From assembly GCA_036874045.1 (NCBI GenBank), contig CM072341.1:4662501-4726500 (forward strand): a stretch of 64,000 nucleotides of DNA. Direction: 5' to 3'. The stretch comes from Cymodocea nodosa. Its lineage: Eukaryota > Streptophyta > Magnoliopsida > Alismatales > Cymodoceaceae. The position numbers and the translations under genes are program-made. This document shows positions 2,120 to 64,000 of this stretch, piece by piece. Numbering within the stretch: position 1 is the stretch's first letter; each line of letters begins with the position of its first letter. The notes beneath the pieces were generated by a model that searched no databases, was not told the origin of the DNA, and was given only the letters and a program-made list of their open reading frames with translations.

Positions 2120-2640
2120 TGCACGTTTAGACAACTCGTTAAGTTAGAGTTTTATTCATATAGAGGTCACATGAGAACTCGTTAAGTTAGAGGCTTAAAG
2201 GTTAAAATAGGTCATGTGAGAACTCGTTGAGTTAGTGAGTAAAAGAAGAGACGAACTCGTTAAGTTAGTGCTGTACACGTGGTGAAATTATAAATTACGA
2301 ATGTTATATTGTATCACGTGAGGTGCACATGTTTAACTCATTAAGTTAACATAACTAAACACGTTGAGTTGCTATATTGAACACTAAGGCAATGTGTTAG
2401 GCTAGCATTATAAAATTAAGTTGTTATTTTTGCACATGGTAAAATTCTTATTATAAAAATATTTGTTTATTACTGGTTGGTTGAGTTATCTGTAACACAA
2501 CGAAGATGGTTCGTTGAGTTTGCGTAACACAACGGATATGGCTCGTTGAGTTAGCATAACACCACGGAGATAGTTCGTTGAGTTAGCTACAATACTTGTC
2601 ATGTGAGTTGGCACATGAGGAACTCATTAAGTTAGAAACG
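2120..2640 (+). promoter_or_regulatory. U3 motif array: AACTCGTTAAGTTAG-like repeats with G-box-like sites
   Basis: Copies of the GTTAAGTTAG/GTTGAGTTAG motif occur at roughly 2135, 2172, 2222, 2250, 2335, 2507, 2540, 2575 and 2620. They are interleaved with CACGTG or its one-step decay products CACATG and CATGTG. The array ends just upstream of the TATA run at 2647. Better preserved versions in element C's LTRs show the sites as exact CACGTG palindromes, the bHLH/bZIP core site. A transcriptional role is inferred from position only. Confidence 0.65.
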
Positions 2641-2646
2641 TTAAGT

Positions 2647-2656
2647 TATATATATA
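2647..2656 (+). promoter_or_regulatory. TATA box of the element A 5' LTR
   Basis: The decamer TATATATATA lies directly after the U3 motif array and upstream of the presumed R region. The same run stands at 15887-15896 in the 3' LTR and, in slightly shorter form, in every A-family LTR of the window. Confidence 0.6.
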
Positions 2657-3427
2657 CTTGTGTTACTCGTTTAGTTAACATTAAATTAACGACTTCTTAT
2701 TATACTTGATGAAAAATTTTAGACGAGAAAGTTTATTTTGTAGAAAACTTTTTCAAAGATCTAGGATTAATGATTAAAGAAAATTCGAAATGTAAACGTA
2801 GGCCAGAATGTGTGTATTTTGATGAAGGAAAAAGAAAAGACGTGAAGAAGTGGAAAACTGGTAGTGATTAAACGTGAAGGATATGCATGAAATGAAGATA
2901 GAGTATAAAAGGCATAGAATTCTCGTTGATTAGTTATCCTTGCACACTAAAAGAAAAATCTTTTCAAGGATCAAAAACACCTCTTCAGGGAAAAGTCTCA
3001 AGTGGAAGAAAATTCAGTGAAGAATAAAAAGGTAAGATATATGTCGCTGAAAATTTGAAGTATCAGATGGAAGAAAATTCAGTGAAGCAGAAAAAGGGAA
3101 GATATATGTTACTGAAGAATTGTTGAAGAAGAAAGAGAAGAAGAAGAAGAAAGATCTCAAACAAGGAGAAATGTTTTAAATTCCGCAAATTAGTTTTCTC
3201 TATTTGTAGTTATGAAATTGTATAGATGATATATGGTATCGAGAAATAATTGTATCTACAATTTCTAAGGAGAATTGAATTATATATTGTAATTGAAACC
3301 TTGAATAAAAATGATTTTATGAAAATAGTGTCTCAACTTGTTTTTGAGTTTTAAAGTTTCAATTATATTCAAAAATATTGAAAAACACAATTCACCCTCC
3401 TCTTATTTAGCTATACGATCCTACAAG

Positions 3428-3439
3428 TGGTATGAGAGC
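3428..3439 (+). other. Primer-binding site (initiator tRNA-Met) of element A
   Basis: TGGTATGAGAGC differs by one base from TGGTATCAGAGC, the complement of the plant initiator tRNA-Met 3' end. It starts two bases after the LTR end. Copies in elements B (45515-45526) and C (41608-41619) match exactly on the minus strand. Confidence 0.92.
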
Positions 3440-3625
3440 TTTGTTAATAATCTTTGATATAAAATTGATACCAACTTATTTAATATCATTGCTTATTCTG
3501 CCTTCCTTGTTTTTAAATAGAAATTAATATCTAAGCATACATTTAACTTTCTTGATTTAAGGCTCAAGTTGTTTTAAAGTTTTTAGACTGTTTAAAATCA
3601 AATAGGTTGAAAAATCTAAGGTAAG

Positions 3626-5875
3626 ATGGCTACTGGAAATGGTAATTTTTCTTTATATGAAGGCTAAAATCTTAATCGTCCTCCTTTATTTGATGGAATA
3701 CATTTTGAATATTGGAAATATAGGATAACTGTTTTTCTTCAAAGTATAGATCATAAGTTGTGGTTCATGATTTATAAACCATATACTTCGTTATCTACCC
3801 CTCATAATACTTGGACAATTACTAAAAAAGAAAATAAAACTCTGAATGCTAAGGGTTTAAATATTTTATTTTGTGCATTGAGTTATGAACAGTTCAGTAA
3901 AGTGTTGGCATATAAATCTGCTTATGAGGTGTGGCATGCATTAGAAGTTTCACATGAAGGTACTTCTCAAGTTAAAGAGACTAAGATAAACATGTTAATT
4001 CATAAGTATGAACTCTTTAAGATGCACGAAGACGAAAGTATTTCTGAGATGTTTTCTAGATTTCTTGATATCATAAACTCTTTAAAATGCTTAGGAAAGA
4101 AATTTGAATAGAAGGATTTGGTGAGGAAAATTCTTACATCCCTAAGTTCTAAATGGTCTCAGAAAATAACATCAATTGAGAAATCACGAGATTTAAATGT
4201 TTATACCATGAATGAACTTATAGGAAACTTAACAGCTTATGAAGTTCAATTAAATGAATCACTGAGTCACAACAAACTAAAAATGAAGAAAGAAATAGTC
4301 TTCGAAATTAATTCAGATTCTGATATATCTACTAATTCTGACAAGGATTTGATATTGTTGACTAGGAAATTCAAGAAAGCATGGAAAGCTAGGAAACAAT
4401 AAAGGAATAAAGATGACAAACCCTCAACATCAAAATCACTGAATGATAAGAATTCTTCATCCAGAAAGTATATATGTTACAACTATAAGAAACCTGGACA
4501 TCTTTCTCCAGATTGTCCTATAAGGAAAAATGAAAAGCATAGTAGGACAAATCAGAAGAAGATGGCTCAGAAAACTTAGAAAAAGTTTTACAAGAAAAAG
4601 GCTTTGAAGGTCACTTGGGATGAGACATCTGAAGAGTCTGAATCTGAGGAATCATCATCAAAATCTTCAAATTCAGAAGGGGAACTAGAGTTAGAAAACA
4701 TTGCTCATGTGTGCTTCATGATAGATGAGTCTGAGGTAATATCTAATCTTGAAAGTTATTCAAATTATAACTTTGATGAATTATTATGTGCTTATCATGC
4801 ATTATTACAAAAACTTAAAGTTTGTAAACTAGAAAATAAGAATATTAGAAACTCTTTATCCATTGTGGAAGAAGAAAATTGTTTCCTGTCTACTACTTTA
4901 GAAAAGTTTAAATGTGATAATGAAAATCATGCTAGAGATTTGCATAAATTTAGATTTAATGAATGTGTCTTGCATGAACAAATATAGAATACAAATGCTG
5001 AAAAATTTAAGATAGAATCTGAAAATGAAATATTGAGAAAAAATATAAATGATCTCGAATTAGAGATTGATAAATTAAAACTGAGAGAGCTAGATTTAAA
5101 TTCTACCATTGAGAAATGGAATTTAAGTCAAACTAAGTTAGACAAACTAACTAGTACCCCTACGGTGTCATATAAATTTGGCTTAAGATTTGATTATCCT
5201 AGATCTCAAGCCAATAAAGGATTTATTAGTAGCAGTTCAAGTAAATCTAAGACTAAAATTCCTTTTATCATGAAACAAGGTAATAAATATGTAGAAGTAA
5301 GTACTTCAAGGGATGAATCATGTAGTAATAATATAAATCAATGTGATTTGTCTAAATGTACTTCCAACATGACTATTAATGTTTCTCAAAATCTTGTTTC
5401 TTGTTCTGGAAATTTAGTTTCTAATATTTCTAAAATTTTAGACAATTGTAGTAAATTGTAAATTCAGAAACCCGAGCATGTAATTCAAAACACTAGTGTT
5501 AGACCAATTACTCATTTTGCATGTGATAAATCTGAAAATTCTTATGTAGAAAAAGATTTTGTATGTACTGAAAATTCAAATACAAGTACAAAATCTTGGT
5601 ATGAACTTACTGAAATGTATGAGCATGACCGAAATAAATTAACATGTGATAAAAATCAGTTTGGTCTTGGTTATACTACATCTTAAAATAAAAAGAATGA
5701 TTATAAGAGCAATAATGCTATAAGTAAGTATGATGCTAATGATAAGTCAACAATACTTACAACTAATAAGAATGTAAACGAAAATGTTAAACTTTTTTTA
5801 AACAAAAAGAAGAAATATGCGTTTAATGAACTTGGTCCTCAACAATATTGGGTACCAAGTAAAAGTTTTTCTTAA
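3626..5875 (+). pseudogene. gag: Element A gag (copia nucleocapsid), broken by stops
   Basis: The start ATG at 3626 matches the intact start of element C. Order: N-terminal copia gag domain (about 3626-4400, with FDGIHFEYWKYR and WHALEVSHEGTSQVKE), a zinc knuckle near 4470-4530, then an acidic serine-rich stretch and a long coiled coil (4600-5460). The CCHC knuckle has lost its second cysteine to tyrosine (C-x-Y). In-frame stops occur near residue 14 and at about 4111, 4402, 4580, 4987, 5461 and 5685. Most change CAA or CAG into TAA or TAG. The stop at 5873-5875 is shared with element C in frame and is probably the natural gag terminator. The product would package element RNA into virus-like particles, but this copy cannot. 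Confidence 0.88.
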
Positions 5876-8800
5876 TTTATTTTGTAGGAGGAAACAACAT
5901 CAAAGTGGATCTTGGACAGTGGAGCATCTAGTCACATGACCAGACAGAAAAGTCTACTACAAAATTTTACAAATACCATGAAAGGAAGTGCAACATTTGG
6001 AAACAAAAGCAAGGATAAAATCATAGGTATGGGTAATGTTCAAATAACTCCAACTTGTGTTATTTCGAATGTACTATATGTAGAAAACCTAGGATTTAAT
6101 TTGCTGAGTGTTATAAAACTAACTGAGAATGGATATTATGTAGTGTTTGAAAATAATGTATGCAAAATTATTGATAAAAATACAGATGAAATTAAGTTTA
6201 TTGCAAAAGGAAAAGGTTCTGTATGTATTTTATCTTTACCTTCTGGTGCAGTTGATTTAAATTCATGTTTGCTATCTGAAACTAGTGATGCATATCTATG
6301 GCATAGAAGGATTGGGCATATAAATATGAAAATGTTACATACACTATCTAAAAAACATTTAGTGAGAGGTTTACCAAAGATTAAATACTCAAAGGACTTT
6401 ATGTGTAATGCATGCGAGTTAGGTAAACTTTACAAAAACTCTTTTAAATCCAAAACTGATATTTCAAGCAAGAGAGTCTTAGAACTTATACAAATGGATC
6501 TATTTGGACCAACAAGAATCATGAGTTTTGGTGGTAAACGGTATGCATTTGTTTTAGTAGATGCTTCTCTAGATACACTTGGGTATATTTTCTAGCATCT
6601 AAGATAGAAGTTTTTGAAAAGTTTAAAATGTTTTGCAATTTTGTTCAAAATGAACAAAATGTCTCTGTTCAAAAACTTAGGAGTGATCATGGTTCAAAAT
6701 TTGATAATGATCAAATGGATAATTATTGTAATGAGCATGGCATTGATTACAAATTTTCTTTTCCAAGAACATCGTGTCAAAATGGTGTTGTTGAGAGAAA
6801 GAATAGATCACATCAAGAAATGGCCAGAACTATGTTGAATGAACATAAGTTACCTCAAAATCTTTGGGTTGAAGTAGTGAATACAGCTTGATATGTTATT
6901 AAGAGAAGTCACTTAAGACCTAGTGTTAATAAAACTCCTTTTGAAATTATGTTTAATAGGGTTCCAAAAATTTCCTATATGAAACCATTTGGCTGCAAAT
7001 GTTTTATTCTTAATACTAAGGATAAAAGGGATAAATTTCAGGCCAAAGTGGATGAAGGAATTTTTGTAGGTTACTCTACTAGAAGTAAAGCTTATAGAGT
7101 ATATAACAAGACTTCTAGAACTATTGAAGAAACCCTCTATGTAAGCTTCAATGAAAATTCTTTTAGAGAATCTTAATCTAAAGCTGATAATGATGATATG
7201 ATCAATTTCCCAAAAGAGTTAGAGATCAATAGAGAGATTGACAATTTATCTGAGAAAATAAAAAAATATGAACTTAAATGATCAAACCCATGATAAAAGT
7301 GATGGACCTTCAGATGTTGATGAGAATATTGAGGAAAATCAGAGAAATTGGTGTTATTCTTCATTACATCCCATTACTCAAGTCATTGGTAATATTAATG
7401 AGGGAGTTAAAACTAGAGCTTCAATAAATTTAAATAATATGTGTATGTTTGTTTCTATGGTGGAACCAAGGAATATACAAGAAGCATTATGTAATGAAAA
7501 TTGGATAGTGGCAATGCAAGAAGAACTAAATCAATTCATTAGAAATAATGTTTGGGAATTAGTATCTCCACTAGAATATTAGTCCATAATAGGTACAAAG
7601 TGGATCTTTAGAAACAAAACTAACGAAACTGGTCAAGTTATAAGGAACAAAGTTGGATTAGTTGCACAAGGGTATACACAGGAAGAATGACTAGATTATG
7701 ATGAAACATTTGCTCCTATGGCTAGGTTAGAAAGTATTAGAATATTATTGGCCTATGCTTGTCATATGGATTTTAAATTATATCAAATGGATGTAAAGAG
7801 TGCATTTCTAAATGGTTTAATTAATGAAGAAGTCTATGTAAACCAATGACCTGGATTTGAAGATATTAAAAATCCTGACTTTGTGTATAAATTGAAGAAA
7901 ACCTTATATGGGTTGAAGCAAGCACCTAGATCATGGTATGAAAGATTATCTACTTTTTTAATAGAAAAAGGCTATATCATGGGAAAAGTGGATCATACTC
8001 TATTTATCAAGAGAGATGGTAAAGATCAGATTGTTGTTCAAATATATGTGGATGATATAATCTTTGGAGCAACTTCTGATAAATTGATAAAAATATTTTC
8101 TAAAGAGATGACTAGTCAGTTTGAAATGAGTATGATAGGAGAACTTTCATATTTTCTTAGACTTCAAATTAAGCAAATGGATAAAGGTATATTTTTAAAT
8201 CAGGAAAAATATGCAGATGAAATGCTTAAGAAATTTAATTTTAATAATACAAGGATTCGAGGAACTCCTATGAGTACTTGTTTAAAGTTAGATATTGATG
8301 TCATAGGAAAATCAATAGATCAAAGAAAATATAGAAGTATGATTGGTTCTTTACTTTATTTGACTGCTAATAGACCTGATATTATGTTTGCTGTGTGTGT
8401 TTGTGCTAGATTTCAATCTAATCCTAAAGAATAACACTCAATTGTAGTTAAAAGAATATTTAGATATATAAAAGGAACTAAAAATTTCGGACTATATTAT
8501 TCTAAGGATGGTTCGATAGATCTTATAGGATATACTAATGCTAATTATGCAAGATCTAAATCTGATAGAAAGAGTACCAGTGGCACATGTCAATTATTGG
8601 GAAATAATCTAGTGTCATGGTTTAGTAAAAAGCAAAATTGTGTAGCACTTTCTACTACAAAAGCTGAATATGTTGCTGTTGCACTGTGTTGCACTCAGAT
8701 TCTGTGGATAAGGAAAACTTTAGAAGACTTTGGATTATCTTATGATACAATTGAGATTTATTGTGATAGTAATTCTGCAATAAATCTTTCCAAAAATCCT

Positions 8801-8995
8801 GTATTACATTCTAGAGCAAAGCATATAGAGGTTAAACATCATTTTCTAAGAGATAACGTAATTAAAGGAAAAATTAAATTAGAATTTGTGTCTAGTAAAA
8901 ATGAATTAGTTGATATATTTACAAAACCTCTAGACAAAAATACATTCTGCAACATAAGATTAAATTTGAGTATTTGTAGGCTATGTGATGTGTAA
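5876..8995 (+). pseudogene. pol: Element A pol (protease, integrase, reverse transcriptase, RNase H), decayed
   Basis: The order PR-IN-RT-RH is diagnostic of Ty1/copia. Protease keeps the catalytic WILDSGASSHMT near 5906. Integrase shows the HHCC region (WHRRIGH ... CNACELGK, 6299-6430) and the DHG and ERKNR segments, but a frameshift near 6565 breaks the catalytic core. RT (about 7480-8330) has KSAFLNG, YGLKQAPRSWYERL and the catalytic YVDD at about 8046. RNase H (about 8490-8990) has LSTTKAEY and AKHIEVKHH. A second frameshift lies between 7177 and 7267, and stops lie at 7582, 7688, 7848 and 8434, among others. The final stop, after CRLCDV, is shared with elements B and C. Confidence 0.92.
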
Positions 8996-10165
8996 AATGC
9001 TTAAACTCCACAAAAATATAAATATTATTGATGATGTTGTTCACCACATAGATATTATATACTTATCATAAATATTTAAGTAATATCTAAACTGCTGCTT
9101 AAGATACTATGTATTTATTGTAAAATCATAGTAGTATCTTATTGATTTTAAGTAGTTTATAAATTTTAATGATTTTCACGATTTTAAGTGGAAGTGTAAA
9201 TGAACAACATTAAATACTTCTGTAATTCTGAAATTTTGATTAAGTGTTTTCTTTGAATCGAGGAAAGTGCATATGATCATGCATAAATTTGACTTAATCG
9301 ATTAAACTTGTAAAATAATTTATATGTAACTCATCTTAAATTGTTAATCAAAAGTATAAGCTTATTGAAACTAATTCATATTTTCAATAAAATCATAGAA
9401 GTAAAAGTTGTATGAGATTTGTGTTTTACTACATTTGTATTAATAGAATACATATATATTGTGCGTAAAATGAAAAGTGCTTACAAAGTGAAAATCTTTG
9501 AGAGTTTATTGATTAGTTTGATCACGAGCCTTTTGTACTTGAGTAGATAGGTATGTAAGGATTATTGTCCTCAAAAAGGATTCTTTAAATCTGGCAACCT
9601 CAGGTCTTGATCAGATCTGGGATTGTTGACGAAAGCTCATTACACGGGTACATTAGAAAGCTCTTGTATGATTCAAACTTTTTCAAACTAACTTTTAAAG
9701 AAAATTATCAATAGTTATTGTTTTGAAAATAAAAAGTTGTTTCATTAATTACAGATATCTTTGGATCGAATATAGTTTCTACCAATATGACTACTGATTT
9801 ATTGAATCAACATTAGTACTTTTGAAAACGTTTATTTGAGATACATTCTTTTATTCTCCTTGAATTAATCATATTGATTTCAAAGTTGTGTTTTGATTCA
9901 TATACAGTATGAATTGATTCTAGAAATCATTTTTGATGAATTCAGAATATCGGAAGTCCGAAAAGAAAATTTAAAAGTCTAGCTATACTTAACATCTATT
10001 GTTATACAAGTATATTTAGTATGTTATTGAATATATAAGAAGTATATTTGTAGGGGGAGGATTAACAATGTCTAAAACAGATTAATATAATTTAGAATAC
10101 AAATCTTGGTTAATCTGAATTAAAGTCCTCTTAAGATCTTGATGAAATAATTTAAAAAGACAAAC
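8996..10165 (+). other. Conserved non-coding spacer between pol and ORF3 of element A (left part)
   Basis: No ORF is present. The stretch is recognisably conserved in B (28200-29412), C (34800-36037) and, in its core, even in the divergent element F (61150-61290). The most conserved core is 9530-9665, with a splice-donor-like AG|GTATGT at 9548-9555. A purine tract TAGGGGGAGG lies at 10051-10060. The spacer continues after the solo LTR, from 11931 to 12263. Confidence 0.7.
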
Positions 10166-10170
10166 AAACT

Positions 10171-11925
10171 TGTAGGATCGTATGGCTACACAAGAGGGGG
10201 GTGAATTGTGTATTTTTAATATTTTCTGAAATATATTTGAAACTTTAAAACTCAAAAACAAGTCGAGACATTGTTTTCATAAAATCATTTTTATTCAAGG
10301 TTTCAATTACAATATACAATTCAATTCTCCTCAGAAATTGTAGATGCAATTATATTTCGATACCATGTTTCATTTATACAATTTCATAACTACAAATAAA
10401 GAAAACTAATTTACGGAATTTAAAACATTTCTCCCTGTTTGCGATCTTTCTTCTTCTTCTTCTTCTTTCTTCTTCAACAATTCTTTAGTGACGAATATCT
10501 TGTCTTTTTATGCTTCACCGAATTTGCTTTCTTCTGATACTTCAAATCTTCAGTGACGAAAATCTTACCTTTTTATGCTTGACTGAATTTTCTTCCACTT
10601 GAGAGATTTTTCCCGAAGAGGTGTTTTTGATCTCTGAAAAAGATTTTTCTTTTGGTGTGCAGGGATGGTTTGATCCTTGAAAAGATTTTTCATTTTGTGT
10701 GCAAGGATAAATTGATCAACGAGAACTCTATGCCTTTTATACTGTATCTTCATTTCATGCATATCCTTCACGTTTAACCACTACCAGTTTTCCACTTCTC
10801 CACGTCTTTTCTTTTTCCTTCATCGAAACACACACGTTCTAACCCATTTTATATTTCGAATTTTCTTTAATCATCAATCTTGGATCTCTGAAAAATTTCT
10901 TGCAAAATAACCTTTCTCGTCCAAAAATTTTTCATCAGTGTAATAAGAAGTCGTTACTTTAATGTTAACTAAACGAGTAACATAAGTATATATATATAAC
11001 TTAACGTTTCTAACTTAACGAGTTCACCATGTGCCATTTCACGTGTCAAGTACTGTAGCTAACTCAACGAACTAAGTTCGTGGTGTTATGCTAACTGTAG
11101 GAACCAGCTTAACCTTTCTTTCGGAAGGTTAAACGATAACTCACCGAAAACAGTTTAAGTTTCGAATAGTTACAGATGTAAATCACCGAAAAACTCTTTA
11201 TATTATAAAACTAGTGAGACACGTGTCAAGACTTGAAAACATGACTTAAGTTACCTTTCGGATAGTTACGATTGTAAGTCTCTGAAAAACTTTAACTCAC
11301 CGATTCAGTAATAAACAAATGTTTTTATAATAAGAATTTTACCACGTGCAAAAATAACAACTTAAGTTTATAACGCTAACCTAATGCGTTGCCTTAGTGT
11401 TCAATATAGCAACTCAATGCATTTAGTTATGTTAACTTAATGAGTTAAACATGTGCACCTCACGTGATACAATACAACATTCGTAACTTATAATTTCACC
11501 ACGTGTATAACACTAACTTAACGAGTTCGTCTCTTCTTTTACTCACTAACTTAACAAGTTATCACGTGACTTATTTTAAACTTTAAGCCTCTAACTTGAC
11601 GAGTTCTCACGTGATCTCTATACAAACAAAACTCTAACTTAACGAGTTGTCTAAACGTGCACTGTTCATGATATAGAAGATATAACTTTAAAACATATCA
11701 TGCTTTTCAATAAAAACACACGTTAACTTAACATTTAGCTAAATGAGAAATTAATGCAACGAAACGACTAATTATTAACTTCAGATTCAATACAGACAAG
11801 CATTTATATCAGTAAGCTTTTTCTGTATTAATTGATGATTTTAATTTCTTTTCACAAGCAATAGTAATTGAGCAAATATGATTATTTTCATTCAGCACAC
11901 ATCATCAAAACAAAAATACTCAACA
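10171..11925 (-). mobile_element. Solo LTR of the A family, inserted in element A with AAACT target duplication
   Basis: On the plus strand it starts TGTAGGATCG and ends CTCAACA, the reverse complement of the A-family LTR. AAACT flanks it at 10166-10170 and 11926-11930, and there is no PBS, PPT or internal region. It is therefore a solo LTR left by recombination between two LTRs. At 1755 bp it is about 170 bp longer than its relatives, because 11098-11310 holds an unrelated motif block. It carries seven exact CACGTG sites (11040, 11220, 11343, 11461, 11500, 11563 and 11608). Confidence 0.93.
11098..11310 (-). repeat. Foreign motif block inside the solo LTR
   Basis: Where other A-family LTRs have one to three AACTCAACGAACCATC units, this LTR carries about 200 bp of a different vocabulary. 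Examples are TTTCGGAAGGTTAAACG, ACTCACCGAAAA and TTTCGAATAGTTACAG. The wording resembles the U3 of the family-E LTRs (1-350 and 54500-55110). Flanking LTR sequence resumes at the same homologous point (AGTAATAAACAAATG), so this looks like a module replacement and not a nested transposon. Confidence 0.65.
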
Positions 11926-11930
11926 AAACT

Positions 11931-12263
11931 ATTTTAGATTCATAAGAAGAGAATGTTAGAATAGTTTACAATGTTCTCAAGATAATGTTAAGTATAGCAT
12001 GTGTGTTGTCTTTGGAAGATTTCAATTGAAAGCATCCGAATTTTTGTTAAGTGTACTAACTGAACGTTATGTTATATAAGATAACGTGTAAAACTGCATC
12101 TAGACAACGTTTTACTCGTTAGGTTAGTTAACTCAATGAGTTATACTTGAATATTTCGGGTACCTTGATTGAATAAACTTTATTCAATATTCATTTAATA
12201 TCTAAACCCGACTTCTATACACGTTGAGTTATTCGCCTAAAACCCTATTTAAACACTTATTAC
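11931..12263 (+). promoter_or_regulatory. Upstream region of element A ORF3 with TATA-like box at 12246-12253
   Basis: This resumes element A after the solo LTR. It holds motifs of the LTR type (ACTCGTTAGGTTAG and AACTCAATGAGTTA, 12113-12148) and a conserved CCCTATTTAAACACTTAT box about 90 bp upstream of the ORF3 ATG at 12336. The same box precedes ORF3 in B (27909-27916) and C (34533-34540). An internal promoter for ORF3 is an inference from conservation and spacing. Confidence 0.5.
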
Positions 12264-12335
12264 ATGAGCAGTTTGGTTATTCGTAAACTTTGTCAAGAAA
12301 ATCTTTCCTACTTGTTACTGTTACAACCTGTGACT

Positions 12336-14608: not shown

Positions 14609-15084
14609 CTGCTTGTTTGCTTGTTTCTAAATACAAAATGTAATGTTTGTATTCATTGAACAATACATTTTTCTATAAATGCTTACAATTCTTATTATTG
14701 TTTACAGAAAGCATTGTTGTAAATATATCTCTTACTATATATTCTGTGTAATTATCTTTTCGATTAATGACAAAAAAGGGGAGAAATGTTATAAAAATAA
14801 AAAGATGATTATGATTTTAAATTGCATATAGTATAAAGGGAGATGATATTTATGGTTATTGTATCTGAATGGTAGAGAAATGATACTTATATAATTATTG
14901 ACATCTGAAAGTTTTATTTCTGAGAGGTGAAATTTACACAAACAATAGAAATAAGCTTAAGTGAACTTAAGTCAACAAACTTGTTTGTTGAATTAAAAGT
15001 TAACCCAACAAAGGTGCTTTGTTGAGTTAAATATATTTCATAATTGATTTAATATGGTTTTGTCATCATCAAAAAGGGGGAGAT
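14609..15084 (+). other. 3' untranslated region of element A with two polypurine tracts
   Basis: There is no gene here. A minor purine tract (AAAAAAGGGGAGA) lies at about 14773-14785. The main PPT (AAAAAGGGGGAGA, 15071-15083) directly abuts the 3' LTR. Both tracts are preceded by a TGACAAAA or TGTCATCATC sequence, and the pair is repeated in B, C and F. Repeated PPTs before the 3' LTR are a known Sirevirus trait. Confidence 0.75.
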
Positions 15085-17731: not shown

Positions 17732-17950
17732 CTGTTGTGATTCTGTAAAACATAAACAAAAATTTAACAGAGACAAAATTAACATAACTACTTCACACCC
17801 TCGTGGGATTAGGTCATAACTTAACGGACTAAATTCGTTGAGTTAAGTAATAACTCTACGATACTACTAACTTTAATTAAACTTACATTTTTTTTCTTTT
17901 TATATATTTCCACTTACTATATTATACATAGTTACTTCAGTTATACTGTT
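17732..17950 (-). promoter_or_regulatory. Interval between gag module and F-box with splice-like signals and an LTR-type motif
   Basis: On the minus strand there are two GTAAGT donor-like sequences (complements at 17912-17917 and 17881-17886) and a pyrimidine-rich acceptor ending in CAG at 17743-17745. They would define an AT-rich intron of about 140-175 bases between the end of gag and the F-box ATG. The interval also holds one TTAACGGACTAAATTCG / TTGAGTTAA motif pair (17820-17846), the type that fills the LTRs. Splicing is a prediction only. Confidence 0.4.
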
Positions 17951-23165: not shown

Positions 23166-23168
23166 AGT

Positions 23169-52722: not shown

Positions 52723-54372
52723 TTTGTTTTTACAGGAGAAAACAATATCAAAATGGATTTTGGATAGTGGAGTATCAAGTCACTACATGACTAGACAGAA
52801 AAGCCTACTAACAATTTTACAAATGCTAAGAAAGAGTGTGTAATATTTGGAAATATAAGCAATGATAAAATCATATGTATAGGAAATGTTTAAATAACTC
52901 TTATTTGTGTTATTTCAAATGTACTATATGTAGAAAACCTAGGATTTAATCTGCTAAGTGTTATACAACTAATTGATAATAGATACTATGTACTGTTTGA
53001 AGATAAGATATGCAAAATTATTGATAAAATTATAGATGAACTTAAGTTTATTGCTAATAGAAAAGGTACTGTATGTATTTTATCTTTACCTTCTAGTGCA
53101 ATTGATTTAAATTCATATTTGCTAGTTGAAACTAGTGATGCATATCTTTGGTATAGAAGGATCAGGCATATAAGTATGAAACTATTGCATAAATTATCTA
53201 GTAAAAATTTAGTAAGAGGTTTACCAAAGATTAAAGACTCAAAAGATTTCATGTGTAATGCATGTGAGCTAGGTAAACTTCATAAAAACTCTTTTAAATT
53301 CAAAAATGATATATCAAGCAAGAGAGTCTTAGAACTTATACATATGAATCTTTTTAGATCAGCAAGAACTATGAGTCTTGGTGGTAAACAGTATGTATTT
53401 GTTTTAATAGACGACTTCTCTAGATACACTTGGGTATATTTTCTAGCATCTAAAATAGAAGTTTTTGAAAAATTTAAAATATTTTGCAATCTTGTTCAAA
53501 ATGAACAAAGTGTCTCTATTCAAAAACTTAGGTGTAATCATGGTACTGAATTTGAAAATGATTAAAAGGATATCTACTATAAAGATCATGACATTGACCA
53601 CAGATATTCTTTTCCAAGAGCACTTTGTCAAAATGGTGTTGTTGATAAAAAGAATTGATCACTTTAGGAAATGGTCATAACTATGTTAAACGAACATAGT
53701 TTACCTCAAAATCTCTAGGCTAAAGTAGTTAATATAGCTTGTTATATTATTTATAAAAGTCACTTAAGACCTCTTGTTAATAAAACTCCTTTTGAAATTA
53801 TGTATGGTAGGGTTCCAAAAATTTCCTATATAAAACCATTTGGCTATAAATATTTATTCTTAACACTAAGGATAAAAGGGATAAATTTTAAGCCAAAGCG
53901 AATGAAGGAATTTTTGTAGGTTACTCTATTAGAAGTAAAACCTATAGAGTTTAAAACAAGACTTCTAGAACCATAAAAGAAACTCTTCATGTGAGCTTTA
54001 ACGAAAATTCATTTAGAAAATCAAAATCTAAAGATGATAATGATGATATCATTAGTTTACCAAAAGAATTAGAGATTGATAAAGAGATTGAAGATTTATT
54101 TGAGAAAATTAGAAATATGAACTTGAATGATCAAATTGATGATCAAGGTGATACACTTTCAGATGTGGATGAGAATAATGAGGAAAATCATAGAAATTGA
54201 CGTTATTCTTCATCACATCCTATCACTTAAGTCATTGGTGATATTAATAAAGGAATTAAAACTAGAGCTTCATTAAATTTAAATAGTATGTATATATTTG
54301 TTTCTATGGTGGAACCAAAGAATATAGATGAAGCCATATCCAATGAAAATTGGATATTAGCAATGCAAGATG
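52723..54372 (+). pseudogene. pol: Element D protease-integrase remnant
   Basis: Protease reads WILDSGVSSHYMTRQ with one inserted codon. Integrase shows YLWYRRIRHISMK (the first His of HHCC lost), CNACELGKLHKNS, VLIDDFSRYTWVYF and a decayed QNGVVDKKN. The terminal MVEPKNIDEAISNENW segment marks the approach to RT before the E LTR at 54373. Confidence 0.88.
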
Positions 54373-55863
54373 TGTTAGAACCCTTATGTTTTGATAATGT
54401 AAAAATCCATGTGAGGAATCAAGTTGTATTTCATAAGATAGTTATAGAAGATAGTTCAGTTAGCTGCAGGTTAGAAGAAGGAATTTTTAAAAAGTTCCAA
54501 GAGAAACTATCTGAAAGAGGAATAGTTTCGGAAGGTTCTAGGTAAAACTATCCAAAAGGGAAAAGAGCTTTGAAAACTTTGAAATAAAGTTTCGGAAGGT
54601 TTCAAGAGAAACTATCTGAAAGGCAAATGTTTTTGGAAGGTTTCAAATGGTAAACCGAAACTAGAGAAAAACATGTGCAGAACTTAAAGTATCACGTGAC
54701 ATAGAGAAAAATAACTGTTCAAGATATCAAATACTTTCAAAAGGATCTTTCAGAAGGTTTGAAGTGAAACTATTCGGAAGTCAAGTCATTTCAGAAGGTT
54801 TCAAATTCAAGGAGTTCAAACTTCAGGAAACCTTACATGACAAAATTAAATATTCATGTGACAGGTATAAAAAGCCTTTGGAGAGTTTAAGAAATGATTT
54901 TGGAAGGTTTCAAATGAAACATTCTAAAAGATAGAATAAATCGAAAGGTTTCAAGCTAAATGTCTGAAATACAATTAAAACCATGTGCCTAACTTAAATC
55001 TCACGTGACAGGAATATGAGAGTAACTATTTGACCCTTCGAATAGTTTCAAAGATAGTTTTTGGAAGGTTTCAACATGAAACTATTCAAAAATCTAATAA
55101 AATTGGAAGGTTACAAAAAGGTAGTATATTAAATGATAACTTTCTATTTATAGAACTAGTAGATCAGTAAGTATAGTAGAATAAATCTGTTAAAGAGAAA
55201 TATGATTGTTGGATTTACAAATATAAATACAACTAGATTATTGAACAACAAGTAGAGTTGAGAAAATAGAGATACATAGAATATACATTGTAGATCCTCT
55301 TCCATTACAGAAGAAAATATACTTCAAATCATATACAATAGAGAATAGATTGAGAAAGTTGAATTCAAGAGAAGATTCTCAAAGCTCTCCATGCATTGAA
55401 AGTCTGGTCTAAGAAGGATCATTGGTTCATGGCTTCAACTAGAAAGCTGCACACTGTGTTGGTTTGAGTTTTGACTTAAAAACTCAAAGAGATTGGTTGC
55501 TGAGTTTTGACTTGAATGCTCTAGGTTGGTTTGCTAAAGTTTTGACCTAAAACTTCTAAGAGGTGTTGGTTGGAGCTACAACAAGAAAGTTCAAGTGAAT
55601 GGTTGGTACTTGCTTCGATCTGAAAGTAAGTATATGTAAGTGTTTGAACACTTAGTAAAACTCAAGTGATCCTTGAGGGTGGACTAGCCAAGTTGGTGAA
55701 CCACCTAAAAATTCCTTGTATTCTTATTTATGTTTTCCACTATGCATGATTTATTTACCTATTTAATACTTGTGCATATTGATTAATCAAATAAGTTAGA
55801 AAAGCTTAAAATGACACATAGATCACCATTCACCCCCCTTTAGTGAGCCATTTGGTCCTAACA
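54373..55863 (+). repeat. 5' LTR of element E with an inverted-repeat motif array in U3
   Basis: U3 (54500-55110) repeats a phrase close to TTCGGAAGGTTTCAA, followed by GAAACTATCTGAAAG, about eight times with irregular spacing. Each unit can pair GGTTTC with GAAAC. A few CACGTGAC-type sites are interspersed (54693, 55002). The R/U5 end shares GGTGGACTAGCC and GGTGAACCACC with the LTR at 1-845. Confidence 0.85.
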
Positions 55864-55975
55864 ATTGGTATCAGAGTAGGTTGATCTCATTTTATAGATT
55901 TAACCATCTGAGATCATGACATTAATTCATAGAGAGGGTTAGAATATCTATCATCCACCCATGTTTCATGGTAAC
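54373..55975 (+). mobile_element. Element E: 5' LTR, PBS and gag start, interrupted by element F
   Basis: The LTR (54373-55863) has TGTTAGAACC...GGTCCTAACA termini. A TTGGTATCAGAG primer site follows at 55865-55876. The first internal codons near 55917-55975 resemble a copia gag start (a PPMFHG-like segment). Element F then inserts at 55976. The remainder of E lies outside the window. Confidence 0.87.
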
Positions 55976-57740
55976 TGATAGGAAATGTTTATACTTAAGA
56001 GGGGGGTGAATTAAGTATCATGCAAATTTAGTAGTATATTTGGTCCCTTTTTAAATCTAGGTAAAGCGGAAATAAAATAGAGATTAAAACACACAAACAA
56101 TTTATAGTGGTTCCCCTCAACCTAGGTACGTCCACTCCTTGAGTCCTTACTTAAGAATTCACTATCCTTAGGAGTTTTTGGTTCACTCAAAACCTAGTGT
56201 CTCTAGCTTTAATCAAAAGCTAGATCAACTTTAACAAGGCAGTGATCCTTTGTCAAGTTCTCCTTCTAACTATATGAACCCTTGCATAGGTACTGTGCTA
56301 ACTATACTAGCCTATGTATAGTTATCTACACAACTTTACGTGCTCCCATAAAGTTCCTCTAAAACTCTTTTGAAAGAATACCTTTCAGAGTTTCTTCCAC
56401 AACATCCCTTGTGAATAAGTTCTCTTTTTTAATTAAATGATTTAATGCAAAGAGGAATTAATCATGAAAGCATAAACATAATACAACTTTCCTCTTGTAG
56501 ATATGGCAACACTTAAATCTTTAAGTAATTTCTTTGTTGCTTCGGAGTTCCTTTTGATAACTTTTAGCTTAAGTTCTTCATGTATCTTCAAGTCTTCTTA
56601 GAATTTTCTCTCTAGAGTTTTTGCCAAAAGGCAACTCACTTACAAACATTGATTTTACTCAATTTATATTTCATTGAGAAAATATAACTATTTGCACACA
56701 ATCCTACAACACGTTCTTTCTCTTCTAGATTTTCTGCAACTACTTACTACATGATTGTTGAGACATAATTGGTTCGTGAAGTTAGCAAAACTCAACGAAC
56801 TTACTCCGTAGACTTAACAATAACTCAATAGACCTACTTCGTGGAGTTAGCTTTACTCAACGAACTTACTTTGTGGACTTAACTATAACTCAATGGATTT
56901 GCTTCGTGGAGTTTACTTAACAGACTTACTTCGTCGACTTAACTTTACTCAATGGACTTACTTCGTGGACTTAACTTTTTCTGAACCATAATCTTTTAAT
57001 CTTGTCTTTTTCAAATCGATATCTAATTGCCATATATAAATATTTTGACCGAGTCTTTTGTAATATGGTGAAACGTGTGTATGTTTACATGCGTGCCATG
57101 TGTCATCTGCAAAACAATTAATCCTGCACCAAAACTTTGATTAAATAAAACTATAATAATTAAATGCATTCATCAAAGTCCTAACATTACGACCCTTCAT
57201 AGAGTTATGCCCATAACTTTACGAACTTATGCAAAGCAGAATATTACGAACATCCATAAACTTATCTCCTTAACTTTACAAACTCCTACAGGTTGATACG
57301 TGTAAAATATAATTCTATATCTTTTTATAAACTACCTATGCTAGACTTATAACTTTACGAACCCCATTAGGAAATAACCTTATGAAGGTTCGTCAAGTTA
57401 TCCTAATAACCTTATAGATTCTATATATCATAAGTTTATGAAGGTCCTTAACGTTAAAGTCATATCTTTATGAACTTAAGACTTAACTTATATAAATCCA
57501 TAACTTTACAGTTGTTCATCAATTTATCATCTTAAGTATATAAGTTGCCGTAAAATTATATACTAAAATTAAATTTAGAGTTTTAAACTAGAGTTATAAG
57601 TCAGATAAATTTCCGATTATACTTAAACATTATGTACTTGATATTATTTATGAAATTCATCATTTTGCATACTTTAAAAAATCATTTTATCACTCATCAA
57701 AATCTATCAATATTAATGAATAAGAACATTATCCTTAACA
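55976..57740 (-). repeat. 3' LTR of element F
   Basis: TG...CA termini, 1765 bp, with the GAGGGGGGTGAATTAAG end shared in style with other families. It holds a 33-bp-period array (56771-56985) and a looser series of ATAACTTTACGAAC motifs (57180-57520). Confidence 0.82.
56771..56985. repeat. Minisatellite-like array, about 33 bp x 6.5, in the element F LTR
   Basis: Units follow TCGTGGAGTTAGC...TTTACTCAACGAACTTAC and TTGTGGACTTAAC...TAACTCAATGGATTTGC, alternating in register. Each unit carries a GGAGTTA...TAACTC-like inverted pair. The phrase resembles the AACTCAACGAAC motif of the A-family LTRs. Confidence 0.75.
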
Positions 57741-57985: not shown

Positions 57986-60238
57986 CTACAACTTGTCTTT
58001 TAAGTTTTCAATATCTGCCTGCATTATTGCCATTGTTTTTTTTGTAGTTGTTTGATCCTTGCAAGTAGCAGAAGGTTAGTTGAAGATCTATCTTCAAAAG
58101 AGGAGGGTTCTATCTGTGTATGTGTTTGATCTCCTGAAGTAGATGGTACTATGGTAATTGATTGTCTATAAGTTGATGTAGTGTCATTTACTGCAAATTG
58201 TGTAAAATCATTTATAGTCAAATACCTTGACCTTTGCTGACAGATTGTCCATTTGGCCAAAGATAAAGATCCACTTAGTAATCTATATATGGCATCTCCA
58301 AAAAATAATTTTGTTTTGACATATTTCAGTTTGGAGTTAAATACCCTATACCAATTTACTTGGATCATGTTCATGACAGCATAAGTGACCAATTTAACAA
58401 ACTGGCTTAATTTCAATTCATGCCCTTACCTTTGATATATTGTTCTTATAAGAACAAAGGCAATAATTGAACTTTTCCATTAAGATATTTCATTTTGTTT
58501 AATAGTGGAATTGCAGGATCTATGCAAAGACATGATTTAATATCTAAATCTTTCCAACCTAAGCCAACTGTAGTTTTTAAAATTTCCAAAATAGTATTTC
58601 TTAAACCTAGCTACTGATAACATAGTTCAAGACATAACTCAATATCTTATTCTTCAATGTTGGTTATCAGTCGGCCTTCCACTTCAATTAAATTACTATA
58701 AAATACAAGTACTAAACCATTGATATAAGAAAAAATATTTTCTTCTTGAAAATCTTGATTAGCCCTTGAAATTCAAATAATCCATAGATGTCCTACAATT
58801 TTCTCCAGTCTATAGGTCTGCTATAAAGTATGTCAGAAGATTTATAGACCTTATACTTCTCTTGAGCTGCTTGATTTTGGAAGTATAGTGGAGAAAATTC
58901 TATATCAGGAAATTGTTGAAGTGGTGATTTTTCTATTAACTCAACTAGTCTTTGAATAGTCTCTTCAATATGAGTTCCAAATGATTCGTCTTTATGTTGT
59001 TATTCAATAATTGGAGGAGGGATTGTTGTATGTGTTGAATCGTGACTATAAGTAGTATATCTATGATCTACATTAATACCCTCATCCATTGGTGTAGTGA
59101 TATTCACAAAAGTATCCTATATACTTGTTTTTGTAATATCAGCTAATGGAGATTTTGCTATTTCTGTATTTTCAAAATCTATACTATCTATAAGCTCATT
59201 CAAAATTTCTCTAATAATGACAGCTAGATTGATTGGAGAAGGAGTAGGAATCACTAGGTCATCAAAATGTGGTTGTGAAGTAGTGGATTGACTAGAAGAA
59301 GTTGCATGGGAACTTATTGTTCTCATCTTGTGAGTGTAAGTTTGAGGAAATTGTTCAAACTTCCTTTTCCTAATAATCAAGGGAAGTTATTCTTCGTCAT
59401 CACTTTCTTTGTGTCCTTCAACTAGACCTTTTAATTTTCTACTATTTTCTATTTCAAACTACTTCTTTTTCCACTTTCTATATTGAATTCCTTCTCTTTT
59501 CCATTTGTCAAATTCTTTGGAGGCTGCCATATGTGCTTCTTGTATTGATAATTTTGCATCCAATAGAATTTTGACAAAGTTTGCAAATAACTGCCTTTCA
59601 TCTTGATTTTCAAGAGTGTATGGTAGAGTAGTATCTTGTACTGTATTATCTCCTATAGCATCTTCAGCTTCAATTTGATTCTTTCTGCACTAATCAAACT
59701 CAATAGAAGCTTGATATTTGGCAGTTGATAGATCCTCTCCAACTACTAATAATAAATGTACTATCTCCTCATATCTAGGTTTATCAAACAGTAAATGAGG
59801 AGTGAAGAACAATGGTGCTTCTTCCCATTCTTCTTTAGGAGCATTTTTCTGTGATTGTTTAACTATACATTGTCCATATTCTATGTTTTCAAATTTATAA
59901 GTTTTTCTAGTAGCTTAAACATATATTTCCTGTTGAATCTAGAAAATAGATTTCTTTTTAATCAGTTCATGAGCTACTGTATTGAGAGGTTGTAAAGCTT
60001 TTTCTTTTGCTACCTCTTTTTCAATGACTCTTTTAACTTTAGTAGCAAACTCTTTAGTTGACAAAATATTCTCTAAGTTACACAACCTAGTTATTTGACA
60101 ATATTGAATGTGTAACTGTTCCGTCTATTTTACCATGTCAGACTTTTTCAACCTTTTGTCATTATGCCAATACGCTGCAACTTGATGAAAAATAGTAAAA
60201 TCTACCTTGCTTTCCTAGTCTAAAGATCTTTGAGCCAT
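57986..60238 (-). pseudogene. Element F ORF3, diverged homologue of the A-C ORF3
   Basis: The probable start is MAQRSLD at 60238. Recognisable parts are a Lys/Glu coiled coil (59950-60200), a Ser/Thr/Pro-rich linker (59117-59380) and the conserved C-terminal region 58024-58416, with MNMIQVNWYRVFNSKLKYVKTKLFFGD and LSLAKW. These align with QINWFDVFTSQLQHMSSKLFYGD and LNLSDW of element A. A short terminal helix ends at TAG 57986. Stops and frame changes are numerous. Conservation of the same core across diverged families argues that ORF3 was under selection in the ancestors. Confidence 0.65.
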
Positions 60239-61654
60239 TGTGTCCTAGCTTTTCATCTATAATTTCTATCTTAGCTCCATCAGGTTTTAGGTAGAAGATG
60301 ATGAACCAAATGAGGTTTTAGGCAAAGTACCAAACCTTAAATATATAAAGTTTATCGGGTAAATAGATTTTAAATTAATTCAACTTTGATTAATATAGTT
60401 AGTATCCAAAAATTATAAGTTTACGAACTCTTTCGTAACGTTATGGCTTTAAGATTACAAAATTAATTTATATATATAAAGAAATTTTTTCATTTTTACA
60501 CAACCAAATATGTCTTCGTAAACTTAATGCATTAACTTTACGAGGTTTTATAAACTTACCCTAGTTAATAGTACGAGGTTTGTATACTTAAATCTTAAGT
60601 TTACGAGGTCTCATAAACTTAGCTAACTATCTAGGCTTGATTAAAAATTGTGAATGTACTTCCTAAATATTTCTTAGTTTTTATAAGTTTTTCTTAGTTT
60701 TTATCAGGTTTTCTCAGTATTTTTCAACTTTTCCCCCTTACACATGTGCACTAAGCTTAAACAGTAACTGTAATGAAAAATAATAATGAAACAAACTAAA
60801 AAGAAGTAGATACTAAAAGAAATAAATACTGAAAGAAGTAAACAAAATATAATATACCATGTAATTTTTTGTTTAACATTTCATGTGCTTCTAATCGTAA
60901 TATCATATTAGAAAACTTACAGTTTCAAATACGAAATCAAATATGATTTGATATATAGATTTCTTTAGCATAACCAATTTATTGCAAACTTTCAATCTCA
61001 TATAGAAGTATAAATAGTGTATCTTTATGAAACACAATTAGATATTGACATATATTAGTGTATCATGTTAGTAATAAGTTAATCTTTTGAACTATTTCAC
61101 CAACTTATATATATATATATATTTTTCATACATATATTAAATCCATTAACAACTAGACTTTCTATTATACCCTTGTACCAAGCTTTTAGTCAACAATCCT
61201 AAATCAATTTAGACCTTAGGTTGCTAGATTTTAAGATATCCCTTCGTACCTACTAGCTCAAGTATAATAGGCTTATGGGACTACTTTTTTTTATTAATAC
61301 ATATCAATTGGACTTTTGTCTATTGATATTCTAAAAATAAAACAAAAGTGAGATGATGCTATTGTTAGATATCAATTCTGAATAATAGAAATTAAGATAC
61401 AGATTTATAACTTCATATGAAGGATTTTAGTTGTCAACTCTTCAATCATACTTAGTTTCTCTTCTAACAATCAAATCAAAATTTGAAATATTTATCTGAA
61501 CATAAGTTTATCTTCTAAAATTAGATTTTCAGCACATTTAATGTTAACATTTTAACTGATACTATATAATTGTCAAATCATATGAAAATAATTAACATTC
61601 ACAATATCAAAAACATCGTAAATTAGTTAAAACATTAAAATACCTAAAATCAGG
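60239..61654 (-). other. Pol-ORF3 spacer of element F
   Basis: Non-coding. It contains a TATATATAAAG-like box near 60340-60350, a run of TTTACGAGGT/AACTTTACGA motifs (60415-60625), a purine tract (complement TTCCCCCTTA, about 60728) and, at 61150-61290, the core conserved with elements A-C. A (TA)n run lies at about 61107-61122. Confidence 0.65.
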
Positions 61655-62174
61655 ATGCACTAGATAGCTTTTCATACATCATGTAGTTTGCATACACCTA
61701 AATTTCTTCTTAGATTTGAAAAAGTATTTTCATCTAATGGTTTAGTAAATAGATTTGCTAATTGTTTAGTAGTAGGAATAAAATTTAATTTAATTTAATC
61801 TTTCCTTTTAGAACATTATCCCTTAAGAAATGATGTCTAACTTCAATGTGTTTTGACCTAGAGTGTAATATAGGATTTTTGGAAAGACTAATAGCAAAAC
61901 TACTATCACATAGAATGCACTGGATAGCTTTTTAAACATCACGTTGTTTGCATACACCTAAATTTCTTCTTAGATTTGAAAAGGTATTTTCATCTAATGG
62001 TTTAGTAAATAGATCTGCTAATTGTTCAGTAATAGGAATAAAATTTAATTTAATCTTTCCTTTTAGAACATTATCCCTTAAGAAATGATGTCTAACTTTA
62101 ATGTGTTTTAACTTAGAGAGTAATATAGGATTTTTGGAAAGACTAATAGCAGAACTATCACATAGAATTTTAAT
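61655..62174 (-). repeat. 260-bp tandem duplication at the pol end of element F
   Basis: 61655-61914 and 61915-62174 are two direct copies of the RNase H C-terminal coding end, both containing the complement of the GVCK-type end and the FTKPLDENTF segment. They differ by point changes and a 5-bp TTTAA expansion in the left copy. The right copy continues colinearly into RNase H. Confidence 0.85.
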
Positions 62175-62765
62175 TTGTACCAAATGTATTCCAAAATCTT
62201 TTAGGGTTTGTCTAATCCATAAAACTTGAGCATAGCATAATGAAGTTGCCACATATTTAGCTTCGGTAGTGGACAAAGCAACACAATTTTGTTTCCTACT
62301 ACACCAAGAAACTAAAGAATTTCCTAATAGTTGACATGTTTCACTTGTACTCTTTCTATCTGATTTGCTCCCTACATAATCAGCATCACTATACCCTATA
62401 AGATCTATAGAACTGTCTTTAAAGTAGAATATACCATAATTTGGAGTGCCCTGAAGATATCTAAAAATTCTCTTAACAACATTTAAATGAGACATTTTAA
62501 GATGTGCCTAAAACCCTGCACACACATAAACATAATATCTGATACCACTAAACATAATATCTAGTCTACTAGCTATTAGGTATAATAGAGATCTAATCAT
62601 ACTCTTATATTTCTTTTGGTCTATTGGTTTTCCTATACTATCTTTGTCTAGCTTTAGAGATGTACTCATAGGTGTGACTTTAATTTTAGTATTTGTAAAC
62701 TCAAACTTTTTAAACAACTCATTTGTATATTTTTCCTGATTTATAAAAATTCCTTTAATAGTTTG
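61932..62765 (-). pseudogene. pol: Element F pol 3' part (RT end, RNase H)
   Basis: The minus-strand reading has KKYKSMIRSLLYLIASRLDIMF (62560-62640), then after a disrupted stretch HLNVVKRIFRYLQGTPNYGIF, SDADYVGSKSDRKST, LVSWCSRKQNCVALSTTEAKY, an AISLSKNPI segment, HIKVRHHFLRDN and the terminal CKQRDV at 61932. The RNase H active-site region is recognisable, but a codon is missing near CDSSAIS. The upstream part is cut by the LTR at 62766. Confidence 0.88.
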
Positions 62766-64000
62766 TGTAGGATCGTATGGCTACACAAGAGAGGGGTGAA
62801 TTGTGTTTTTCAACATTTTTGAATATAATTGAAACTTTAAAACTCAAAAACAAGTCGAGACACTATTTTTATAAAATAATTTTTATTCAAGGTTTCAATT
62901 ACAATATATAATTCAATTCTCCTCAAAAATTGTAGAGGCAATTATATTTCGATACTATGTTTCATCTATACAATTTCATAACTACAAATAGAGAAAACTA
63001 ATTTGCGAAATTTAAAACATTTCTCCCTGTTTGAGATCTTTCTTCTTCTTCTTCTCTTTCTTCTTTAGCAATTCTTTAATAACAAATATCTTGTCTTTCT
63101 CTACTTCACTGAATTTGCTTTCTTCTGATACTTTAAATCTATAGTGACAAAAATCTAACCTTTTCTGCTTCACTGAATTTTCTTCCATCTGATACTTCAA
63201 ATCTTCAATGACATATATCTTACCTTTTTATGCTTCACTGAATTTTCTTCCACCTAAGAGCTTTTCCTCGAAGAGGTGTTTTTGATCATTGAAAAGATTT
63301 TTCTTTTGGTGTGCAGGGATAATTGATCAACGAGAATTCTATGCCTTTTATACTATATCTTCATTTCATGCATATCATCCACATTTAATCACTATCAGTT
63401 TTCTACTTCTTCACGTCTTTTCTTTTTCCTTCATCAAAATACACACATTCTGACCCATGTTTACATTTCAAATTTTCTTTAATTATCAATCCTGGATCTC
63501 TAAAAAATTTCTTGCAAAATAAACTTTTTCTTCCAAAATTTTTCATCAAGTATAATAAGAAGTCGTTACTTTAGTGTTAACTAAACGAGTAACACAAGTA
63601 TATATATAACTTAACGTTTCTAAATTAACGAGTTCCTCATGTGCCAACTCACGTGACAAGTACTGTAGTTAACTCAACGAACTATCTCTGTGATGTTACG
63701 CTAACTCAACGAACCATCTCCGTTGTGTTACAAATAACTCAACGAACCAGTAATAAACAAATGTTTTCATAATAAGAATTTTACCACATGCAAAAATAAC
63801 AACTTAAGTTTTCTAACGCTAACCTAACACGTTGCCTTAGTATTCAATATAGCAACTCAGCGCGTTTAGTTATGTTATAGCAACTCAACGCATTTAGTTA
63901 TGTTAACTTAACGAGTTAAACATGTGCACTTCACGTGATACAATATAGCATTCGTAACTTATAATTTCACCATGTGTACAACACTAACTTAAGGAGTTTG
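62766..64000 (-). mobile_element. A-family LTR inserted in element F, running off the right edge
   Basis: It starts TGTAGGATCG at 62766 and keeps the GAGGGGTGAATTGTG end, the TTCTTCTTCTTC stretch near 63045, the TATATATA box near 63600 and the beginning of the U3 array. A 24-25 bp direct repeat (TAGCAACTCA...TTTAGTTATGTTA) occurs at about 63850-63903. Whether it is a solo LTR or part of a complete minus-strand element cannot be seen. The presumed left target duplicate is GTTTG (62761-62765). Confidence 0.88.

Follow-up and report, generated by a model that had tools for sequence, protein, structure and literature searches.

The stretch of DNA analysed here (the window, 64,000 nucleotides) covers positions 4662501-4726500 of contig CM072341.1 of Cymodocea nodosa, whose genome measures 374.6 Mb. 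It holds long terminal repeat (LTR) retrotransposons of two superfamilies, namely copies A1, A2 and A3 of a Ty1/copia Sirevirus (family A), a second Sirevirus (family F) and an interrupted Ty3/gypsy element, G, all outlined in Table 1. Arrays of a short dyad motif lie in the LTRs of these elements and upstream of their internal open reading frames (ORFs). An earlier note on this DNA had pointed to eight such places and read them as a regulatory vocabulary common to unrelated elements, and recognisable copies of the motif can be found in each of the eight.

Table 1. Retrotransposons, genes and motif arrays in the window (positions in the window; PBS, primer binding site; PPT, polypurine tract).
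Feature	Position	Strand	Remarks
A1, Sirevirus (Ty1/copia)	1845-16656	+	LTRs 1845-3426 and 15085-16656; TTAGG on both flanks; from self-BLAST, with ends, PBS, PPT and target-site duplication read
A1 U3 array	2130-2680	+	AACTCGTTAAGTTAG units with CACGTG, then 32-bp dyads TAACTCAACG/CGTTGAGTTA
Reverse A LTR copy inside A1	10168-11926		From self-BLAST
A pre-ORF3 linker with motif dyad	11927-12263	+	Contains 12113-12148 of the earlier note
A1 ORF3 region	12264-14605	+	Broken into several frames; homologous to G ORF3
F-box ORF (PF00646) carried by G	16805-17842	-	Split by one stop in the window copy
Dyad at start of F-box ORF	17815-17862	-	
Part of G gag (PF03732)	18734-19139	-	Downstream of pol in the G family
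N-terminal piece of G ORF3	19141-19402	-	Fused in frame to gag at junction 19140; ORF 18734-19402 compared with L033 ORFs
G pre-ORF3 dyad array	19878-20042	-	19860-20040 of the earlier note
G linker	20043-20420	-	Strict CGGT-N2..4-ACCG palindromes (Sirevirus repeated-motif class) in other copies, none in the window copy
G pol	20421-23552	-	Reverse transcriptase PF00078 before integrase PF17921, PF00665
A3, Sirevirus copy	23665-47008	-	AAAAC on both flanks; inserted in G; A2 nested within
A2, Sirevirus copy	30124-43231	-	LTRs 30124-31705 and 41621-43231; PBS 41608; PPT 31708; nested in A3
A2 3' LTR U3 array with CACGTG	31240-31430	-	Type example of the earlier note
A2 pre-ORF3 linker with motif dyad	34490-34860	-	Contains 34645-34670 of the earlier note
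G 5' LTR	48540-50495	-	TG start at 50495; 3' end uncertain, 48667 to 48540
Second dyad array of G LTR	48773-48867	-	Near the LTR 3' end, downstream of a TATA-like box
G U3 block	49867-50088	-	Homologous to A LTR offset 398-657, same strand; CACGTG and motif sites
F, second Sirevirus family	54400-57740	-	LTR start near 57740; the 54400 end is arbitrary
F LTR dyad array	56771-56985	-	Period 32
F ORF3 piece	58027-58937	-	One half-site at 58937, upstream

Family A can be assigned to the Sireviruses because its PPT, the layout of its PBS and an inverted repeat around the PPT match hallmarks of this group, given in excerpts of PMC2829016 as a PPT of the form AGGGGGAG-AT-TG, a PBS laid out as CA-N5-TATCAGAGC and the inverted repeat. 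All three copies (A1, A2 and A3) have AAAAAGGGGGAG-AT-TGTTGAG at the 3' LTR, the PBS is CA-AGTGG-TATCAGAGC in A2 and A3 with one substitution in A1, and the repeat (TCATCATCAAAA ... TTTTGATGATG) is present. The copia order of integrase and then reverse transcriptase (RT) can be seen on the minus strand (rve at 38389-39159 and RVT_2 at 36337-36915, both below curated cut-offs), and the copia gag domain PF14223 and SH3_retrovirus score above theirs. Family F is a second Sirevirus, since it carries the same PPT signature, AGGGGGAG-AT-TG, with more than one PPT (57743 and 57908), and its RNase H piece is 67% identical to that of A. The elements had been described as members of unrelated superfamilies, which holds for A or F against G and does not hold for A against F, both being Ty1/copia Sireviruses. 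A further Sirevirus internal region (50496-54370, plus strand), about 85% identical to A, lies directly against position 50495, where the G LTR starts, which may point to an insertion of G into that region.

Element G is of the Ty3/gypsy type, with RT before integrase and a PF03732 gag. A set of 24 G loci was fetched by likeness to window positions 19640-20100, which means that they represent one family and are not independent finds. When several loci are put together, G copies can be read in the order LTR, pol, array, ORF3, array, gag, array, F-box ORF and LTR. The part from ORF3 to the F-box ORF is complete in L034, L063, L064 and L065; ORF3 (only a piece in L056), array and gag are present in L033 and L056, and L062 has lost gag. 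Instead of preceding pol, gag follows ORF3 (L033, L034, L063, L064 and L065) or a piece of it (L056). Because the minus-strand pieces lying between the A insertions of the window fit this order, the places that had been taken for separate contexts, an "Athila LTR" (48775-48870 and 49868-50100), a "displaced gag" (19860-20040) and an F-box gene (17820-17846), can be joined into one interrupted gypsy element, although the arrays reported there do exist. The segment from 50495 to about 48540 is the LTR of G, since L042 and L044 have it upstream of pol and L041 has it downstream of the F-box ORF. As for the displaced gag, its supposed array is the pre-ORF3 array of G, and gag follows it through the fusion at 19140. 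Of the 23 other loci, 21 can be aligned with the window copy from 19140-19145 on and two, L026 and L028, from later positions, and beyond this junction other G copies share different DNA; judged from these alignments, the window copy is without most of ORF3 and the real pre-gag array, which are missing at 19140. A host gene promoter upstream of the F-box ORF was likewise rejected, because the ORF travels with G copies (L034, L062, L063, L064 and L065 carry it). Its ratio of nonsynonymous to synonymous substitution is 0.38-0.50 in four pairwise comparisons of pieces, which suggests selection on the protein.

Athila-type Ty3/gypsy elements carry an extra ORF after pol. G is like them in having RT before integrase, a PF03732 gag and an ORF after pol, and unlike them in placing gag downstream of pol and ORF3, followed by an F-box ORF, and in having an ORF3 similar to the one found in copia Sireviruses. 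Near 48500, a GCGCCGTTGCC string presumably resembles an Athila-type PBS. Other features of the family can be mentioned here. An ITLRSG-type gag/pol remnant is retained upstream of pol in L042, and L042 2167-2481 (reverse complement), which is 78% identical to G LTR 50394-50089, is situated between pol and ORF3 of a third Sirevirus-like family. In two copies, the F-box ORF and the G 3' LTR are separated by a copia RNase H-like segment (844-1211; L041 1149-1972, reverse complement), which may either belong to G or have inserted long ago. At 19733, in the pre-ORF3 linker of G, there is a 9-mer like the Sirevirus PBS, which was judged to be possibly due to chance.

The motif recurs well beyond chance. 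Neither outcome that the earlier note had named as refuting its reading, a density like that of shuffled sequence or an origin wholly in nested A LTR fragments, was observed. Against a background of 20 dinucleotide shuffles of the window, the half-site TAACTCAACG (at most 1 mismatch) occurs 125 times compared with 2.9 +/- 1.3, CACGTG 37 times compared with 1.45 +/- 1.1 and TAACTTAACGAGTTA (at most 3 mismatches) 89 times compared with 5.4 +/- 1.9. Genome-wide, a 24-base array piece gave 1093 matches with at most 1 mismatch and its reversed control gave 0. The commonest steps between half-sites are 19 and 13-14 bp, producing dyads of 32-33 bp. In the window, 120 of the 125 half-sites are located in LTRs, in pre-ORF linkers, in the stretch before the F-box ORF or beside a PPT, with the feature boundaries for this tally drawn after the arrays had been seen; the remaining 5 are spread over 42.7 kb, 3 of them at one matching gag position in three A copies. 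Most CACGTG copies are in A LTRs (31/37), with 3/37 in the G LTR, and the F array and most internal arrays are without it. A blind sample of 21 genome stretches was also taken at preset round positions (96 kb, including 6 of the 8 stretches of one earlier set). Here 86 of 90 half-sites fell in DNA homologous to the window or to the fetched G loci, and the nine stretches without such homology (40 kb) held 1, so the motif belongs to the elements and not to host DNA at large. MYB, MYB3R and bHLH/bZIP proteins are candidates for the host factors that may read these motifs.

The arrays also keep a regular place relative to TATA-like boxes. In the seven A LTRs that have the box TATAAAAGG (the eighth was excluded, as the box was not found there), the 6937 bp upstream of the box hold 75 half-sites and the 3864 bp downstream hold 0. 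In the A1 LTR the box is at offset 1060, after the U3 array, and the last half-site is 234-236 bp from it in 6 of 8 A LTRs and 264 bp in one. In G, a TATAAAAG box stands 178-204 bp after the U3 array in 3/3 LTRs, and ATTATAAATATAG follows the pre-gag array in all six gag-bearing copies, at 190 bp in four, 204 bp in one and 171 bp in one. Family A has palindromic repeats both in U3 before the TATA and before an ENV-like ORF, the Sirevirus layout.

The strongest link between the two superfamilies is found in the U3 region. In three G LTR copies, offset about 408-629 aligns on the same strand with A LTR offset 398-657 (best E values 8e-30, 3e-27 and 1e-25), and the alignment keeps identical runs outside the motif. 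A solo LTR with a G-type start, situated in the pol of another G (L060/L047), is colinear with A over 547 columns at 69% identity (E 1e-71; about 192-709 in G and 213-741 in A). Its first 190 bp have no match in A, and beyond 720 there is one 42-bp match. Among 20 shuffles of this U3, 1 gave a weak match under sensitive settings and 0 did under default settings, and 0 of 9 stretches free of transposable elements matched the U3. Within this homology the motif is conserved above its surroundings. When the L060/L047 LTR is compared with seven A LTRs within the BLAST-homologous part, columns of A motifs are 85-90% identical and other columns 64-71%, and no circular shift reaches the conservation of the A-motif columns in any of the 7 pairs; with motifs defined on the G side, the effect is seen for 6 of the 7 A LTRs (at most 1 shift as high). 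This recount replaces a count of 80.4% versus 61.6%, which had included non-homologous ends. Across 49 pairs of 7 G and 7 A LTRs, which are not independent of each other, motif columns are the better conserved in 49 with A-side motifs and in 43 with G-side motifs. On the evidence of these alignments, conservation of this kind speaks for selection on the motifs.

A second link can be found in ORF3. The A and G versions are 32% identical over 285 amino acids (E 2e-42), and that of F is 44-47% identical to gypsy G and 32-35% to A, even though the RNase H pieces of F and A are so alike. The ORF3 tree, which is unrooted and built on short pieces, also groups F with G. This closeness of F to G is not predicted by simple descent of ORF3 along with pol. 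The G ORF3 (L033 4808-3738, minus strand) matches PF20167 (Transposase_32, a putative plant transposon protein) with 23.8 bits, which is below the cut-off of 45.

Much of this resembles what is known of Sireviruses. The parts of Bousios et al. (2010, PMC2829016) drawn on here describe palindromic repeats that precede the TATA in the upper LTR half, and more of them upstream of the ENV-like gene; they term this repeated motif (RM) Sirevirus-specific and absent from classic elements, and discuss an internal promoter for ENV as an idea that is supported without proof. The array layout and the extra ORF of A are therefore known Sirevirus biology. G, too, is like these systems in the palindromes of its linker: 22 of 24 G loci (all but the window copy and L013) have strict CGGT-N2..4-ACCG palindromes upstream of their pre-ORF3 array, and so have L033 and L034, with one further match, in L051, among the other loci compared. 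The window has 0 strict and 7 relaxed matches, for which shuffles give 0 and 1.2. Among 55 strict palindromes the commonest is CGGTTCAACCG (20), and CGGTCTGACCG, the Osr10 consensus in the same excerpts (where the Osr10 and Osr8 consensus are one sequence read on two strands), is found exactly on either strand in 6 of 24 G loci. What differs from the RMs as described there is that the same class, along with a homologous U3, occurs in a Ty3/gypsy element and before its gag and F-box ORFs, and that the A motif is the AT-rich TAACTCAACG with CACGTG and not a plain CGG-CCG core; this core is carried by the G linker palindromes (22/24 loci), and the A dyads are a degenerate CAACG[A/G]..[T/C]CGTTG. 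By its sequence, then, gypsy family G is an exception to the restriction of RMs to Sireviruses. No report of Sirevirus-type motifs in gypsy LTRs was found in literature titles and abstract openings, and as far as that literature was searched, the apparent sharing of U3 and ORF3 between A and G by common descent is new. Complex LTR elements of the Triticeae (PMC1950507) offer a parallel in that two parent elements were fused during reverse transcription by template switching; those are fused elements, and the abstract of that paper makes no mention of U3 modules exchanged between superfamilies.

We favour the reading that the arrays are promoter-proximal control modules which copia Sireviruses and the Ty3/gypsy element G have exchanged, with a probability of roughly 0.74. 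Placement, homology, motif-biased conservation between A and G and fixed spacing to TATA-like boxes are the observations behind it; transcription factor binding, internal transcription starts, the mechanism and direction of exchange and, as the earlier note had proposed, a response to one host factor set are what we infer from them. In Sirevirus A, the arrays form the U3 upstream of the LTR TATA and are present again before ORF3, as in the known RM layout. Template switching or recombination would probably account for the exchange of a U3 piece and an ORF3 between G and copia Sireviruses, so that G would now bear a copia-type U3 inside gypsy LTR ends. In G the dyad array is repeated before ORF3, before the gag downstream of pol and before the F-box ORF, and with an array before each, each ORF probably has its own promoter. 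If the arrays are taken as factor sites close to promoters, the internal-promoter idea raised for ENV may be extended to gag. The fuller version, in which the boundary between copia and gypsy was crossed by a U3 enhancer and by an ORF3 cassette and G uses its arrays as separate promoters for ORF3, gag and F-box, is put forward tentatively, at somewhat less than even odds. A derivation of these internal promoters from LTRs was considered and set aside, as the pre-ORF3, pre-gag and pre-F-box linkers matched the G and A LTRs by BLAST only in and around the arrays.

Care must be taken, as several observations weigh against this reading. TATA-like strings occur elsewhere in the same AT-rich LTRs, and the boxes were chosen for their constant place and sequence. 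No clear forward TATA was seen between the G pre-ORF3 array and ORF3. The second array of the G LTR, present in the window and in L041 (L044 stops short of it), is situated downstream of the TATA-like box, so the earlier claim of placement before such a box can be kept for the A LTRs, the G U3 array and the putative gag promoter of G and must be given up for this array. At the F-box ORF, the motif dyad itself forms the 5' end of the open frame and thus lies inside a 5' extension of the ORF. The conservation effect has its own exceptions: with G-side motifs it is absent for the LTR A45528 (85 of 484 shifts as high), 6 of the 49 pairs go the opposite way, 5 of them with A45528, and for the G LTR of L035 the effect is unclear against every A copy. 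When G copies are compared with each other (22 of 24), conservation of the motif columns barely exceeds that of the rest (0.930 versus 0.923, or 0.965 versus 0.939 excluding CpG).

Two other explanations must be weighed, and both appear unlikely, to about the same degree. The first is convergence, whereby unrelated LTRs would independently have evolved or amplified sites for the same host transcription factor. It can draw on the F LTR array, which by BLAST resembles A and G only at the motif level, a point that also counts against exchange, and on the pre-ORF3, pre-gag and pre-F-box arrays, which likewise match at that level only and in both orientations; the fixed half-site steps are also as for dimer sites. 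In the U3 block, convergence is rejected because copia A and gypsy G are colinear over hundreds of bases, the intervening non-motif bases included, with almost equal LTR offsets and the same orientation. Where the earlier note had left a choice of exchange or convergence, exchange is thus upheld for this block, and for the F and internal arrays, which resemble it at the motif level, either origin may apply. The second is that the palindromes act as RNA or DNA hairpins, either as RNA structures or as targets of small RNAs and methylation, and not as factor sites. In maize Sireviruses the palindromic LTR region is reportedly a small-RNA hotspot. Fold z-scores are -4.9, -5.2 and -4.0 for three G arrays, -2.8 for the F-box dyad and -3.1 for F, and the G values, from -2.8 to -5.2, leave room for an RNA role and so also weigh against promoter function; by eye, many of the changes in an array are CpG transitions (C to T or G to A). 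Against hairpins, the A U3 array folds no better than shuffles (z -0.8), the A LTR sites keep to the upstream side of the TATA, and one G hairpin had no covariation beyond shuffles (380 of 500 reach its score, a weak test in which 4 of 9 pairs never vary).

It is very improbable that nested A LTR fragments account for the motif copies of G, of F and around the F-box ORF, even with A elements nested in G in the window and an A LTR inside one G locus (L033), and as a complete explanation this is refuted by G LTR copies at other loci that have the U3 block between G-specific ends; in addition, 36 of the 125 half-sites are outside A LTRs, the G arrays recur in copies elsewhere (the pre-ORF3 array aligns in all 24 loci, which were fetched by likeness to that stretch), and A LTRs match the internal G arrays only within the array.

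If exchanged control modules are the right reading, LTR promoters would be modules that can cross the copia/gypsy divide, and activation and silencing could be common to elements whose replication proteins are unrelated. Plant retroelements would also gain a concrete example of internal promoters, and the production of gag separately from pol would have a possible route. In the fuller version, G would work like a multi-gene virus with a shared regulatory code and not like a retrotransposon with one transcript. The two homologous U3 sequences, with their conserved motif columns, can serve as a ready footprint for finding the host factors.

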